From assembly GCF_030518215.1 (NCBI RefSeq), contig NZ_JAULRT010000062.1, positions 744,001 through 808,000 on the forward strand: 64,000 nt of DNA. The letters are read 5' to 3'. Of the stretch, positions 1 to 5,056 are shown in pieces. The DNA comes from Gilvimarinus algae (GTDB lineage: Bacteria; Pseudomonadota; Gammaproteobacteria; Pseudomonadales; Cellvibrionaceae). Every line of letters starts with the position of its first letter. Position 1 is the stretch's first letter. The position numbers and the translations under genes were made by a program. The notes beneath the pieces are model-generated. The model searched no databases, was not told the origin of the DNA, and was given only the letters and a program-made list of their open reading frames with translations.

Positions 1-1239
1 GACCGGGCGTGGCCCTTCGATATTATCCCGCGGGTTATTGCCCAGCGCGAATGGCTTCACACGGAAAAAGGGCTGATCCAACGCCTACAGGCGCTCAACT
101 GCTTTATCAACGATATCTACAACGACCAAAAAATCGTTAGGGATAAAGTGCTGCCAGCGGAGTTGCTGGCAGACTCGGTAAACTTTCGCCCGGAATGTGT
201 CGGCATGAAGCCCGCGTTTGGTGTCTGGGCTCATATTTGCGGCAGTGATCTGATTCGCGATAAAGACGGGCGCTTCTATGTGCTGGAGGACAATCTGCGG
301 GTGCCCTCTGGCGTCTCCTACATGCTGGAAAATCGCAAAGTCACCAAGCGAATTTTCCCTGAGCTGTTTGAAAACCATAACATCCTGCCGGTTACCGAGT
401 ACCCGAATCAACTGTTCGACACTCTCGCCGCTATCTCACCGAGACCCTTAGAATTTCCGGAAGTGGTGGTGCTAACTCCGGGAATTTATAACTCCGCCTA
501 CTTTGAGCATTCCTATCTCGCCCAGCAGATGGGGGTAGAGCTGGTGGAGGGCAGCGATCTGGTGGTGGAAGACGATCATGTGTTTATGCGTACCATTGGC
601 GGGCTGGCGCCGGTGGATGTGATCTACCGGCGCATTGATGATCTGTTTCTCGATCCGCAAATGTTTAACCCGGACTCGGTGCTTGGTGTCCCAGGTTTAA
701 TGCGCGCCTGGCTCAAAGGCAATGTCGCGATCGCTAATGCACCAGGTGCTGGAGTGGCCGACGACAAAGTCATCTATACCTTTGTCCCGCAAATGATCAA
801 ATACTACCTCGGGGAAGACCCCATACTGCCCAATGTGCCCAGTTATCTGTGTATCGACAAAAAGCAGCGCGATCACGTATTGGCCAACCTGGACAAGCTG
901 GTGGTTAAACCCGCCAACGAATCCGGCGGTTACGGAATGCTGATCGGACCGCAGGCAAGCAAAAAAGAGCGCGAAGAATTCGCGGCCCGAATCAAGGCAG
1001 CACCGCGCAACTATATGGCGCAACCGCTTATTTCATTGTCGACAACGCCCATTATTGGTACCAAGAACGCCGAGCCCAGGCATATCGACTTGCGGCCTTT
1101 TGTTTTGCAGGGGCGCACCAGTTCTGTTACCGCAGGCGGCTTGACGCGCGTGGCTATGCGCAAAGGGTCTTACGTGGTTAACTCGTCGCAAGGCGGCGGT
1201 AGTCAGGATACCTGGGTCGTGGTAGAGGAGGGCAAATAA
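1..1239 (+). CDS. Circularly permuted type 2 ATP-grasp protein (5' truncated by window)
   Basis: The frame is open from base 1, so the gene starts upstream of the window; 412 residues are visible of a family usually about 470-490 long. N-terminal text such as [10 protein letters not shown] and the segment [12 protein letters not shown] are hallmarks of the circularly permuted ATP-grasp family (old DUF404/DUF407). The glycine-rich loop [12 protein letters not shown] and the late HIDLRPFVL segment look like the ATP- and metal-binding elements. ATP-grasp enzymes join a carboxylate to an amine or thiol using ATP; the substrate of this branch is unknown, but a peptide or amino-acid ligase role is the usual prediction. 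Its stop overlaps the start of the alpha-E gene by one base, and an Anbu protease gene lies nearby, the classic company of this family. Confidence 0.93.
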
Positions 1240-2192
1240 TGCTGTCTCGTGTTGCGGAGCGAATTTACTGGATGAGCCGCTATATGGAGCGGTGCGAAAA
1301 TGCCGCCCGGTTGATCAATGTCAACACCAAGCTGCTGCTCGACTTGCCGAGGGGGGTCAGCGTCGGCTGGGGCACTTTGGTGGACATCAGTGGCGGTGGC
1401 GATTTCTTTCAAAAAGACACTGACAACGCCGATGAGCGCGCTGTCATGCGGTTTATGCTGGCCGATACCAATAACCCCTGTTCTTTGATCAGCGCTATCA
1501 CCTATGCGCGGGAAAATGCGCGGATTACGCGCGAGGTGATGCCCTCAGAAATTTACGAGTTGATCAACGATTTGTACTGGTATCTGAAAGAAAACCTTGC
1601 CAGAGGGACTGCCCGTCGGGAGCGACATATTTTGTTGGAGGCGGTGATCAGTCGTGTCCAGCAGTTTACCGGCATGTTGGCAGGTTGCATGAGCCAGAAC
1701 GATGCCTACAGCTTTATTCGCCTGGGGCGCAATCTTGAGCGCGCCGATATGACCTCGCGCATTGTCGATGTGGGGGCGAGCCGTATTTTGCCGCGCGCTT
1801 ATGAAGACAACAGCAGTAATGAGCCCTATGCCAATATTTTGTGGATGAGTGTGTTGCGCTCGCTCAGCGGTTATCAAATGTATCGCCAACATGTGCTCGA
1901 TCGCGTCAATGCCGAGGATGTGGTGATGTACCTGTTTCAGGATCCGCTGTTTCCGCGGGCGGTCGAGCACTGCCTGGGCGAGTTGGCCGATTGCGTGGCC
2001 CGCCTGCCCAATAATGATGAGGTGCTCCGTGTGCTCGCCAGTGTCCGGCGGCAGCTGAAGACCGCCGACTTTACCGTGCTGATCGACGATGGATTGCACG
2101 ACTATATCGATAACGTGCAAGCGGAGATCGCCTCCATTCACCAAGTCGTCGCTGCTACTTGGTTTTTGCCTGAGGTGCAGGTTGCCTCGTGA
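1239..2192 (+). CDS. Alpha-E domain-containing protein (DUF403)
   Basis: A 317-residue protein, full length for the alpha-E family. The N-terminal stretch RVAERIYWMSRYMERCENA is diagnostic. The family is all-helical, of unknown biochemical function, and is nearly always encoded beside a circularly permuted ATP-grasp gene. The start ATG shares one base with the upstream stop, and its own stop overlaps the next gene's GTG in a GTGA tetramer, so the three genes are almost certainly one translationally coupled operon. It may be a partner or scaffold of the ATP-grasp enzyme; no catalytic motif was recognised. Confidence 0.94.
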   Translation: MLSRVAERIYWMSRYMERCENAARLINVNTKLLLDLPRGVSVGWGTLVDISGGGDFFQKDTDNADERAVMRFMLADTNNPCSLISAITYARENARITREVMPSEIYELINDLYWYLKENLARGTARRERHILLEAVISRVQQFTGMLAGCMSQNDAYSFIRLGRNLERADMTSRIVDVGASRILPRAYEDNSSNEPYANILWMSVLRSLSGYQMYRQHVLDRVNAEDVVMYLFQDPLFPRAVEHCLGELADCVARLPNNDEVLRVLASVRRQLKTADFTVLIDDGLHDYIDNVQAEIASIHQVVAATWFLPEVQVAS

Positions 2193-3205
2193 GGGATTTT
2201 CACTGTCAGTGCGGGGCCCGGGTTTTCTTTCACAATAGTCGCTGTTTGAACTGTGGACTCAGCCTTGGTTTTGACCCTCAGCGTCTTCAAATGCGGTCGC
2301 TTCGAGTCGAGGGCGCCTGGCGAGTGGATGACAGTGATGGTAAGCGGTTTCGCTACTGTCGCAACCAGCGCGACTATGGGGCCTGCAATTGGCTGTTGCC
2401 GGAAGGGGAGCACAAGCCTTACTGCATCTCCTGCCGTTTGAACCGTACGGTGCCGGATCTGAGCGGTGCTGAGAACATTGGCCGCTGGATCAAGCTGGAG
2501 GAGGCCAAGCGCCACCTGCTCTATTCGCTCTTGTCTCTTGGCTTGGCTTTGACCCCAGCCAATAATCGCGGCGTGAATCTGGCGTTTGCGTTTTTAGAGG
2601 ATGCCCGCACTAATCCTGATATGGCTGAGAGTTTTATTGCCACTGGTCACAAAAGTGGATTGATTACCATCAATCTTGCTGAGGCTGATGACCTCTACCG
2701 TGAACGAGTGCGTGAAGAATTGGGTGAGCATTACCGCACCATACTCGGCCATTTTCGTCATGAAATTGGCCACTACTACTACGAAATTCTGGTGGCGGAC
2801 AGCCAGTGGCGGGAATCCTTTGAAACCTTGTTCGGCGATCCACAAACCGATTACGGTGAGGCGTTGAATCGCTACTATGCACTGTCCCCGAGCGCCGATT
2901 GGCACAAGGCTTACATCAGTAACTATGCCCAGGCCCACCCGCTGGAAGACTGGGCGGAAACCTGGGCCCACTACCTGCATATTGTTGACACCCTGGAGAC
3001 GGCGACAACCTTCGGCTTGATCAGCCGCGATGCTGAGCCGGGTGATATGGACGCGATTTTGTCTGAGTGGCTGGAGCTATCGGTGGGCCTGAATGCCTTG
3101 AATCGCAGTATGGGCCTGGCCGATGCCTACCCTTTTGTCATCACGCCGGCGGTTCGAGACAAGCTCAACCTTGTTCATCGTGTGATACGGAATCTGACCA
3201 GTTGA
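2189..3205 (+). CDS. Putative zinc-ribbon metallopeptidase
   Basis: A 338-residue protein starting at a GTG that overlaps the upstream stop by 4 bp. The N-terminus carries two cysteine clusters that look like zinc ribbons: Cys6, Cys8, Cys19, Cys22, then Cys57, Cys66, Cys79, Cys82. The C-terminal half has an HExxH zinc-protease motif (HEIGH, His191, Glu192, His195) with a downstream EDWAETWAHY segment around residues 254-262 that probably supplies the third metal ligand. This matches the family annotated as putative zinc-binding metallopeptidase (DUF2248/Peptidase_Mx type). It sits third in the ATP-grasp/alpha-E operon and its 3' end overlaps the convergent Anbu gene by 41 bp. A protease beside a predicted peptide ligase suggests processing of the same unknown substrate; this is inference. 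Confidence 0.88.
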   Translation: MRDFHCQCGARVFFHNSRCLNCGLSLGFDPQRLQMRSLRVEGAWRVDDSDGKRFRYCRNQRDYGACNWLLPEGEHKPYCISCRLNRTVPDLSGAENIGRWIKLEEAKRHLLYSLLSLGLALTPANNRGVNLAFAFLEDARTNPDMAESFIATGHKSGLITINLAEADDLYRERVREELGEHYRTILGHFRHEIGHYYYEILVADSQWRESFETLFGDPQTDYGEALNRYYALSPSADWHKAYISNYAQAHPLEDWAETWAHYLHIVDTLETATTFGLISRDAEPGDMDAILSEWLELSVGLNALNRSMGLADAYPFVITPAVRDKLNLVHRVIRNLTS

Positions 3206-3920
3206 GAGAGGGCAGGCGGTCGAAGGCCTCAATCAGGTATTTGTCCCAGGCTTTTTTCAGCGCGCGCAAATAGTCGTCGTCATCGTCGAAGCGAAAACGG
3301 GTCAGCGCGAAGCTGTCGGCCGGGTAAATACCAAGTTCGATGGGCGGCCCCACGGTGAGATTACTGCGCATGGTGGAGTCCATGGACACCAGGGCGCAGC
3401 GTGCCGCATTTTCCAAGGTGGTACCTGCCGAGAGGATGCGATCGAGAATCGGCTTGCCGTATTTGCTCTCGCCAATTTGCAGGTAGGGAGTGTCCTTGGA
3501 GGTGGTGATATGGTTGCCTTGGGGATAGACCATCGCGAGGCGGGGTTTGTCGCCCGCCACCTGGCCACCGATGATAAAGCTAGCCTCAAAGCTGGTACCG
3601 CCGTTGGGGCCACCCACGCTGACGTGCTTGTCCTGCTCCTGTCGGCTGATTTCACCCAAGTAGCTGGCAGCCTCGGCAATATCAGGCAGGGTCTTTAGGC
3701 TGGTGGCTGCGTTGTCGCGGATATCACGCTTGATCTGCGATACCACCGCCTGGGTGGTCGCCAGGTTACCCGCCGAAAGAACGATGAAATCGCGCTCGCC
3801 GCGGACGCTGTAATGGTACATCTTGCCGTAGGTGCTGACTTGGTCCACTCCGGCATTGGTGCGGGAGTCGGAGCAGAACACCAAACCGGCGTCCATGGTG
3901 ATGGCAACGCAATAGGTCAT
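3165..3920 (-). CDS. Anbu, proteasome-type protease (HslV/20S beta homologue)
   Basis: A 251-residue protein with the Ntn-hydrolase layout of Anbu (ancestral beta subunit). The catalytic threonine directly follows the start methionine (Thr2) with no propeptide. Asp18 in SDSRTNAG and Lys33 in GKM correspond, after Met removal, to the Asp17 and about Lys33 of HslV and proteasome beta subunits. Anbu proteins form open ring or helical assemblies in other bacteria; their substrates are not established. The gene is convergent with the metallopeptidase gene and overlaps it by 41 bp, so it needs its own promoter upstream of 3920. No clear Shine-Dalgarno is visible before its ATG. Confidence 0.93.
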   Translation of the reverse strand: MTYCVAITMDAGLVFCSDSRTNAGVDQVSTYGKMYHYSVRGERDFIVLSAGNLATTQAVVSQIKRDIRDNAATSLKTLPDIAEAASYLGEISRQEQDKHVSVGGPNGGTSFEASFIIGGQVAGDKPRLAMVYPQGNHITTSKDTPYLQIGESKYGKPILDRILSAGTTLENAARCALVSMDSTMRSNLTVGPPIELGIYPADSFALTRFRFDDDDDYLRALKKAWDKYLIEAFDRLPSLNWSDSVSHDEQG

Positions 3921-4579
3921 AGAGGGTACAGCTGAACCTTAAAATGGTGGCTTAGAGTAAGTTCGAACGTCCGGCGCGTCAAGCGCAGCTCGAAGAAATA
4001 GGCGACAGCCGGGTTTGGGCTGCCGACCCGCTCCCGCTCTAGGCCCCACAGGGCAAGGGGCTGGAAGCGAGAGTCGGGGTTTATGCAGCGAAACCGCTTG
4101 ATGATGCCTGTTTTTAGCCAGCTCGACGCAAGACGAGTGCTCTATAACGGCTCTGGGCGCGAGCTCCCGGCCGATCGTAGTGAAGCTTCCCCGCCAGTCT
4201 TCGGCGCCTGCTATTCACCAGCGGCGGCTAAAGACCCTACGGCGGCCGCTGGCTGGCATGGCGCCGTACGCCATGTGCTAAGGTGGCCGCTAGTTTGGTC
4301 ACCGGGCCCGCGAGCTGGGGGGCGGGCGATCAACATCGGTGAGCTTGCCAGGGGAAGCACTGGGCCCGGCAGTTGAGAGAGGCCGGCCGGACACCCTATC
4401 TCTTTCACGCCGACGGCCTGGTCGCACTGCGCTCCTCGGTTCGAGAGTTTCTCTGTCGCAAGGCGCTGCACCATGGGGGTACCCACCACCCAAGCACTGA
4501 GGCAAGATGGGGCCTTGCCTCAGAGACCTGTTAACAGGCCCAAACACGGCGCTTGCGCCACCTACCTCAAAGAGATTGT
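3921..4579. other. Gene-free 659 bp interval, possible decayed gene
   Basis: No reading frame here has convincing protein character in either strand; the short open frames are GC-rich and unlike any family known to me. One weak hint of a relic: plus-strand codons from 4343 to about 4531 read ACQGKHWARQLREAG and then run about 60 codons to a stop, faintly resembling the AC-G-H-WAR motif of IS110-type transposases. The left edge must hold the Anbu promoter and the right edge the NADAR gene promoter, but neither shows clear consensus boxes. Confidence 0.4.
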
Positions 4580-5056
4580 ATGTTCAGCGTCGACATCACA
4601 CCCAAATATGTGTTTTCCATGGACGATCCCACACACCCATTCAGCCGCCTGGCGGTGAAGCCTTTTGAGCTAGAGGGGCAACAGTGGCCGAGCGTTGAGC
4701 ACTACTTTCAGGCCATGCAGCTGGCCAGTGCCAGTGAGCGGGATCGGGTTCGGCAATTGGCCGCCCCTGAGGACGCCAGAAGGGCGGGCAAAGGCTGGTT
4801 TAAAAAGCGGCGCAAGGACTGGAGGCAATTGCGCCCCACGCTGATGACTCGCGCGCTCTATATCCAAATGCGCACCTATCCGGAGCGGGCGAAAGCCCTA
4901 CTGGAAACCGGCGATCTGTTGTTGGTCGAAGACAGCCAGTACGACTACTTCTGGGGCTGTGGCCGGGATAAGCGCGGCACCAACACTTACGGAAAAATTC
5001 TGATGGAAATCCGGCGAAAGCTGGCGGATATTGACGCCTCGCCCGAGACAGAGTAA
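4580..5056 (+). CDS. NADAR family protein (YbiA-like N-glycosidase)
   Basis: A 158-residue protein from ATG 4580; an in-frame TTG at 4553 would add nine residues, but the ATG fits the family length and has an AGAG-like ribosome site. The motif WPSVEHYFQAMQ (conserved Glu40) and the C-terminal FWGCGRDKRGTNTYGKILM are signatures of the NADAR/DUF1768 family. YbiA-type members hydrolyse N-glycosidic bonds of reactive early riboflavin intermediates, and others act on ADP-ribose or related damage products. It stands alone, convergent with the dienelactone hydrolase gene. Confidence 0.9.
   Translation: MFSVDITPKYVFSMDDPTHPFSRLAVKPFELEGQQWPSVEHYFQAMQLASASERDRVRQLAAPEDARRAGKGWFKKRRKDWRQLRPTLMTRALYIQMRTYPERAKALLETGDLLLVEDSQYDYFWGCGRDKRGTNTYGKILMEIRRKLADIDASPETE

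Follow-up and report, generated by a model that had tools for sequence, protein, structure and literature searches.

At the start of a 64,000-nucleotide stretch of the Gilvimarinus algae genome (contig NZ_JAULRT010000062.1, positions 744,001 to 808,000 of the forward strand; the window, below, means this whole stretch), we find a double-zinc-ribbon HExxH peptidase of the Peptidase_Mx family (Mx) encoded directly after a circularly permuted ATP-grasp ligase (ATPG) and an alpha-E protein (AE), with the gene of Anbu converging on it from the other strand. Anbu is a proteasome relative for which we know of no function. What sets the locus apart from the published operon is that Mx is present, and a transglutaminase-like (TG) gene absent, at an otherwise known predicted ligase/Anbu locus. 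Mx recurs beside the ligase pair, and at the loci examined Mx and TG come close to excluding each other. We tentatively regard the locus as a compact form of the predicted Anbu/ATP-grasp/alpha-E system already known, a form in which Mx would serve as the linked bond-cutting partner instead of the papain-fold TG.

Two papers, PMC5666114 and PMC6376114, describe an Anbu operon of ATP-grasp, alpha-E, transglutaminase-like and Anbu genes, and each cites Iyer et al. 2009 (these and the other papers named below are cited from excerpts). A first, sequence-only reading of the window had put the locus forward as an undescribed system, which overstated the case: ATP-grasp, alpha-E and Anbu are parts of that published operon, and Pfam already has families for both domains of Mx. 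No link between Mx and Anbu was found in the open-access literature searched; Iyer et al. 2009, the main paper on gene context, lies beyond that search and may already mention Mx.

Results

The window opens inside the ATP-grasp gene, the 3' part of which occupies 1..1239 on the plus strand (PF14403, CP_ATPgrasp_2, E 3.3e-168; PF04174, E 3.2e-142), the last base of its stop codon being 1239. The complete gene (L002:9791-11239) encodes 482 aa from an ATG 210 bases upstream of window base 1, and its product matches PDB 3n6x with E 4.5e-158. The alpha-E gene (1239..2192, plus; 317 aa; PF04168, E 5.9e-84) and the Mx gene (2189..3205, plus; 338 aa, GTG start; PF10005 and PF15887) follow, and the junctions overlap, TAATG joining ATP-grasp to alpha-E and GTGA joining alpha-E to Mx, as in translational coupling. 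Anbu, a proteasome-like Ntn hydrolase of 251 aa, lies on the minus strand (3165..3920), and the 3' ends of Mx and Anbu share 41 nt. This layout of three coupled genes with a convergent Anbu is the one that the sequence-only reading had described, and the Pfam matches, the overlaps and the match of Anbu to solved structures agree with it. Alpha-E, ATP-grasp and Anbu each have one match in the 4.2 Mb genome, and ATP-grasp and alpha-E are unfused.

The association of Mx with the ligase genes was followed in an even sample of 150 Pseudomonadota genomes (147 reach 90% completeness with no more than 5% contamination) and in 80 Mx loci, the nearest relatives of the window's Mx. In the even sample, Mx is present in 24 genomes, alpha-E in 84, ATP-grasp above cut-off in 84 and Anbu in 54; alpha-E accompanies Mx in 23 of the 24 Mx genomes and occurs in 61 of the other 126 (Fisher 7e-6, uncorrected for kinship). 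Seven of 26 full Mx genes (three partial matches excluded) lie within the neighbour limit of 6 kb of an ATP-grasp/alpha-E gene where 0.12 would be expected by chance, genome sizes and locus counts having been entered by hand (P 8e-11); excluding the window leaves six (P 5e-9). These genomes are G000, G102 and G050, together with G137, G028, G095 and G143, in which Mx stands beside an ATP-grasp/alpha-E fusion cluster. Mx is thus not a chance neighbour of ATP-grasp/alpha-E, and the earlier proposal that the metallopeptidase belongs with this set is borne out by the adjacency and by its recurrence in different gene orders.

Among the 80 relatives, at least one partner gene was found at 34 loci by HMM (31 by single-sequence search). 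Eleven have ATPG-AE-Mx with a convergent Anbu (L037, L041, L045, L061, L065, L068, L074, L101, L102, L103, L108), L061 and L065 being cut by contig ends and L101 having one open reading frame (ORF) between Mx and Anbu. Another six, and G102 as well, run Mx, convergent Anbu, ATPG-AE (L043, L064, L072, L080, L107, L110); the remaining partnered loci are fusion or amidoligase clusters, or fragments. Two Marinobacter (L047, L053) carry a one-strand string of Mx, ATPG, AE, TG-DUF2126, ATPG-AE fusion and TG (domains checked for L047). Mx also adjoins ATP-grasp/alpha-E in the Anbu-less genome G050, and no Anbu was found in the fetched stretches of L040, L047, L053 and L062. In Paracoccus chinensis (L105:9926-20421) there are two tandem Mx-ATPG-AE units, with Anbu on the opposite strand at the end of the second; an ORF between the units resembles, by eye, a sensor histidine kinase.

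The sequence-only reading had pointed upstream of base 1 as the place where a transglutaminase-like gene might be found. None is there or elsewhere at the locus: the gene upstream of the ATP-grasp encodes a 2OG-Fe(II) oxygenase, and the four Transglut_core matches in the genome all lie elsewhere. The pattern was followed at 86 standalone alpha-E genes from the 150 genomes (L002 and 85 others, chosen by open frames, leaving out 43 fused copies and one 55-aa fragment), with about 9 kb taken on each side where the contig permitted and neighbours scored with HMMs built for this analysis; the TG model took as its seed the unlinked TG of the window's genome. TG directly follows alpha-E at 51 of the 86 (one fused), and 34 of those 51 also have Anbu. 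With the 26 standalone pairs from the Mx set added, and L166 removed because it is at a contig edge, there are 111 pairs: where Mx lies within 9 kb, 7 have TG and 21 do not, and where there is no Mx, 78 have TG and 5 do not (Fisher 2e-12; rows not independent).

Across whole genomes the exclusion is partial, firm as it is at the locus. The unlinked TG of the window's genome was searched for in 21 Mx-type genomes: apart from the close relatives taken up in the Discussion, three have distant relatives (31-36%), one a short weak match and 13 none. Its median identity to the 86 small TGs collected is about 29%. The Bact_transglu_N domain is absent from 15 of the 21, matches weakly and partially in three (the window's genome among them; two of the three above the family cut-off) and clearly in the genomes of L103, L105 and L107; the genomes of L040, L047 and L053, which hold both Mx and the whole cluster, have two each. 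With both tests combined, 12 of the 21 Mx-type genomes are without a TG of either operon kind and nine have one, absences in several of them being soft, as these are draft metagenome-assembled genomes. The stronger claim, that TG is absent from Mx-type genomes altogether, is weakened by the operon relatives of the unlinked TG and by its relatives in seven other Mx-type genomes.

The trees place the Mx form within the history of the system. That of the ATP-grasp (108 of 112 pairs, rows lacking an ATP-grasp of 400-620 aa having been dropped) has one clade of 42 rows, 38 of them TG rows; the other 66 rows include an all-TG clade of 12 and a subclade of 50 (SH-aLRT 99) made up of all 19 Mx-without-TG rows, 24 TG, four Mx-with-TG and three with neither. 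The Mx-without-TG label needs five changes on this tree, and a single origin is possible, because the starred branches force only one. The 65-row Anbu tree divides into sides of 31 and 34 rows (support 100/99); on one side are 19 of the 20 Mx-type Anbu, the exception being Paracoccus, and all eight of amidoligase type, and on the other 32 of the 34 TG-slot Anbu. Taken together, the two trees indicate that the Mx form sits in a second branch of the system, in which the ligase pair is often without a slot TG and has an amidoligase/TG cluster nearby.

Sigma-54-like sites were scanned for upstream of the ATP-grasp gene at 109 of the 112 pairs, with a threshold set from 875 control regions at their 98th percentile. 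They are found at 22 of 51 TG-slot loci, 9 of 22 of amidoligase or fusion type, 3 of 10 with no Mx, slot TG or amidoligase, 2 of 6 with Mx and TG, and none of 20 with Mx and no TG. TG-slot and amidoligase types taken together (31/73) differ from the Mx type (0/20) at p 1e-4, the grouping being post hoc and the rows not independent; a simpler earlier score had given 34 of 110 loci versus 14 of 609 control ORFs. At the 21 Mx-type loci scanned, the regions ahead of Mx and of Anbu hold no site that reaches the threshold. Ahead of the window's ATP-grasp there is a site with three mismatches whose best score is at the 90th percentile of controls, below the threshold. Its degenerate block, TGGC-TGACTTATGC, is common to the window and Gilvimarinus, yet given that percentile we claim no sigma-54 site there.

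Reports on other members agree with control by nitrogen. With nitrate versus ammonium, P. putida shows log2 changes of 4.44 for Anbu (PP_2685) and 3.99 for ATP-grasp (PP_2688), and the PP_2685 promoter is nitrogen-agnostic as a reporter (PMC8050072). In a B. cenocepacia ntrC mutant the values are -8.2 for DUF404/407, -9.4 for DUF403, -9.4 for TG and -6.0 for the large TG (PMC5491218), and in marine metagenomes the family is correlated with domains of urea metabolism (PMC3597751). Anbu is upregulated under nitrogen limitation and otherwise unchanged in expression, as cited by PMC5666114. Nitrogen control is therefore likely outside the Mx variant and unproven within it; the NtrC/sigma-54 nitrogen control reported for the other types does not seem to extend to Mx-type loci.

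Catalytic residues at the locus are intact. Mx consists of Zn_ribbon_DZR_6 at residues 4-92 (2198..2464, plus; E 6.8e-27) and Peptidase_Mx at residues 97-332 (E 5.2e-94; 314.5 bits, cut-off 27), the HExxH motif reading HEIGH at residues 191-195 (2759..2773, plus). The eight N-terminal cysteines that had been counted in the first reading are at positions 6, 8, 19, 22, 57, 66, 79 and 82, and likely form two zinc sites. When the window's Mx is aligned with 50 of the 80 relatives, 51 sequences in all, C6, C19, C22, C57, C66, C79 and C82 are invariant, as are H191, E192, H195, E253 and E257, the last two being candidate third zinc ligands. In a more distant Mx set the first cysteine group is missing in 4 of 20 (L028, L029, L031, L033), with the peptidase motif kept; G050 carries both kinds, and the cysteine-intact one adjoins alpha-E. 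The PDB entry that best matches an AlphaFold model of Mx (pLDDT 92.8) is that of a putative zinc-binding metallo-peptidase, 4l7a (Foldseek E 1.4e-3, probability 0.99, TM just 0.30-0.36). A zincin fold is likely, if weakly shown by this model; such a fold was predicted for DUF2248 (PMC3650047). DUF2248 is the former name of PF10005, and against the known family (PF15887 with PF10005) the window's Mx has full-length matches, the HExxH motif and no sequence difference that we could find, so that it is the genomic company that stands out.

Anbu matches five solved chains, four of the Anbu family and one designed Anbu (5loy, 5nyw, 5lox, 5nyj and 5nyf; E 2e-77 to 2e-61), and Pfam Proteasome with E 7.4e-6. 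The catalytic Thr1, Asp17 and Lys32 are retained in the window, as in all readable Mx-type Anbu (19 of 20). Its S1 residues T/Y/S/L/T are conservative variants of T20/F30/T48/L52/S55 of Anbu-1, which makes it Anbu-1-like as judged by these positions. The alpha-E model is all-helical (AlphaFold pLDDT 89.2), and no convincing relative of it was found among PDB structures (best Foldseek match E 0.53); its fold may be new to the PDB.

The 2OG-Fe(II) oxygenase ORF (L002:8978-9703) is on the same strand, 87 bases ahead of the ATP-grasp, and a search with its sequence gave no relatives in the 80 Mx loci, Gilvimarinus included. On the other side, about 0.6 kb separates Anbu from a NADAR-domain ORF (4553-5056), and in this gap (window 3921-4600) no convincing gene was seen by eye and no known RNA family was found, the RNA family search giving zero matches. 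Scans for sigma-70 promoters and terminators gave no excess over shuffles. A Pfam scan of seven locus proteins found no AAA+ protein, and DUF2126 has no match in the window's genome. Elsewhere Mx is often solo: in Pseudomonas marginalis (L048:6314-11086) it follows zipA and ligA, the latter encoding NAD-dependent DNA ligase (Pfam was run on L048 only), and a ligA cluster is found at 17 Mx loci. Next to solo Mx, zipA-ligA was the single conserved context of note; several other large neighbour clusters lie opposite known genes and look by eye like antisense ORFs.

Discussion

The locus shares with the published Anbu operon a circularly permuted ATP-grasp followed directly by alpha-E, the Thr1/Asp17/Lys32 set of Anbu and an Anbu-1-like S1 pocket. 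It differs in that Mx stands in the place of the transglutaminase-like gene, in that Anbu is on the opposite strand and convergent, not co-directional, and in that it has no sigma-54-like site at the threshold used; NtrC/sigma-54 control is reported in P. putida and B. cenocepacia. A second known arrangement, the cluster of an ATP-grasp/alpha-E fusion with the TG-DUF2126 amidoligase, has its Anbu on the same side of the Anbu tree as 19 of the 20 Mx-type Anbu and occurs in one gene string with Mx in the two Marinobacter, but the window's genome lacks a DUF2126 match, and its one ATP-grasp and one alpha-E are not fused. RimK-like ATP-grasp proteins belong to another class than the window's. RimK/RimB and RloA/B/C resemble the window in encoding an ATP-grasp protein with a peptidase (PMC12239564), and differ from it in that the peptidases are aspartic, the ATP-grasp is RimK-like and RloB is an inactive transglutaminase; the text of that paper mentions neither alpha-E nor Anbu.

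How would such a variant work? ATP-grasp and alpha-E together would form an ATP-dependent ligase making an amide, peptide or isopeptide, bond; Mx would cleave or edit this product at the step where TG acts in the published operon, and Anbu, a threonine hydrolase of the Anbu-1 kind, would make a further cleavage. The sequence-only reading had suggested a ligated product that would be made, trimmed and destroyed. A zincin has no acyl-enzyme for cross-linking, and so, if Mx and TG do equivalent work, the TG-like partner of ordinary Anbu operons would be a peptidase or isopeptidase and not a cross-linker. In published work, an ATP-grasp from an Anbu-type operon of Y. bercovieri liberates phosphate from ATP, proteasome substrates were left uncleaved by every recombinant Anbu protein tested, and no experimental confirmation of any idea on the Anbu operon was known to the authors, according to the excerpt of PMC6376114; proteasome inhibitors bind Anbu (PMC5666114). 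The more specific history, in which a metallopeptidase of unrelated fold displaced the TG-like protein in one Anbu branch together with an escape from sigma-54 nitrogen control, we consider rather unlikely. If true, it would make the TG-like partner a hydrolase, and Mx, ATP-grasp, alpha-E and Anbu a system of one ligase and two hydrolases for an amide-linked product.

A series of observations weighs against Mx standing in for TG, the weightiest being the unlinked TGs, G031, the numerous solo Mx genes and the clusters with both Mx and TG. In the even sample alone there are three Mx-adjacent pairs, one with TG and two without, against 77 and 5 (p 0.017), TG is retained at 7 of the 28 Mx pairs, and the 80 loci, all nearest relatives of the window's Mx, are not independent rows. 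All 19 Mx-without-TG rows of the ATP-grasp tree are confined to the one 50-row subclade; because many pairs there have an amidoligase cluster and no slot TG, Mx may have been added to a pair without its own TG instead of displacing one. In G031 (L170), ATPG, AE and Anbu adjoin one another, although the genome lacks Mx and no TG is linked to them; its unlinked TG is 36% identical to that of the window's genome, and no substitute enzyme was recognised at the slot, the two genes 3' of Anbu being one without Pfam match and a methyltransferase. The window's genome itself keeps an unlinked TG on another contig (L004:1042-1953), a leftover or a partner acting in trans, as it may be. By blastp it is 65% identical to the slot TG at the ligase locus of Pseudoduganella L055 and 74% identical to the TG beside Anbu and ATP-grasp in G076 (63 and 73% in a further search), and close relatives (58-71%) occur in three other Mx-type genomes. 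Generic Transglut_core proteins are found in 19 of the 21 Mx-type genomes (10 of 14 control genomes), and this persistence, with the relatives of the unlinked TG, lowers the odds of a swap of Mx for TG. Moreover, 46 of the 80 Mx loci have no partner that was found, some being truncated by contig ends, and in 17 of the 24 Mx genomes Mx is not near the ligase, one of these, G086, having no alpha-E. A structure-based argument in PMC5666114 has Anbu degrading protein and makes a role in peptide synthesis less likely.

TG could act in trans, so that unlinking, not replacement, is what the loci may record. TG would then merely have moved and would still work with the ligase, with Mx an added partner and no substitute. 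The unlinked TGs of the window's and three other Mx-type genomes, 58-71% identical among themselves, the finding of their subfamily at ligase loci in Pseudoduganella and G076, and the clusters that hold both Mx and TG (7 of 28 pairs) are what one would expect from such a move. It is a live rival, which we nevertheless think improbable, with 12 of 21 Mx-type genomes lacking a TG of either kind tested, and with three TG-less genomes (G102, G150 of Gilvimarinus and G151 of Glaciecola) sharing the window's locus layout or nearly so. That Mx processes a partner protein such as Anbu, and not the ligase product, or that it is there by chance, is less probable still. In each of the two main arrangements Anbu is the convergent neighbour of Mx, most Mx genes are solo and some follow zipA-ligA; yet Anbu is reported without a propeptide (PMC5666114), and seven adjacent genes in several orders is far above the 0.12 expected. 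Mx stands at the ligase locus of G050, which has no Anbu, and this also disfavours Mx as an Anbu maturation factor.

JAMM enzymes play the metallo-isopeptidase role in ubiquitin-like systems, and a similar division of labour can be imagined here: ATP-grasp/alpha-E would tag proteins with a small peptide or an amino acid, Mx would remove the tag as a metallo-isopeptidase, and Anbu would degrade what is tagged. One locus does hold a ligase, a metallopeptidase and a proteasome-like protease, and protein tagging has been proposed for the operon (PMC6376114), but the recombinant Anbu proteins tested in that paper left proteasome substrates uncleaved, the seven locus proteins scanned include no AAA+ protein, and Mx adjoins ATP-grasp/alpha-E in Anbu-less G050, with no Anbu found in the four fetched stretches named above. 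Of the rivals it is the least improbable, though unlikely. Marginally behind it we place a salvage of nitrogen, in which ligase and hydrolases make or break an amide-linked nitrogen store or amine adduct under nitrogen shortage. It draws on the nitrate/ammonium change of PP_2685 and PP_2688 (PMC8050072), the B. cenocepacia ntrC-mutant values of -8.2 to -9.4, and -6.0 (PMC5491218), the urea-metabolism correlation (PMC3597751) and the sigma-54-like sites before 31 of 73 TG-slot and amidoligase-type ligase genes. At Mx-type loci, however, such sites number 0 of 20 before the ligase and none upstream of Mx or Anbu, the block common to the window and Gilvimarinus is degenerate and at the 90th percentile of controls, and the PP_2685 reporter is nitrogen-agnostic (PMC8050072).

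If the reading we prefer is true, in which Mx is the linked bond-cutting partner of the ATP-grasp/alpha-E pair, then a natural change of linked partner to an enzyme of another mechanism would be a useful functional clue, pointing to bond cleavage as what the two have in common, and marine bacteria such as Gilvimarinus and Glaciecola would supply the compact variant of the system.

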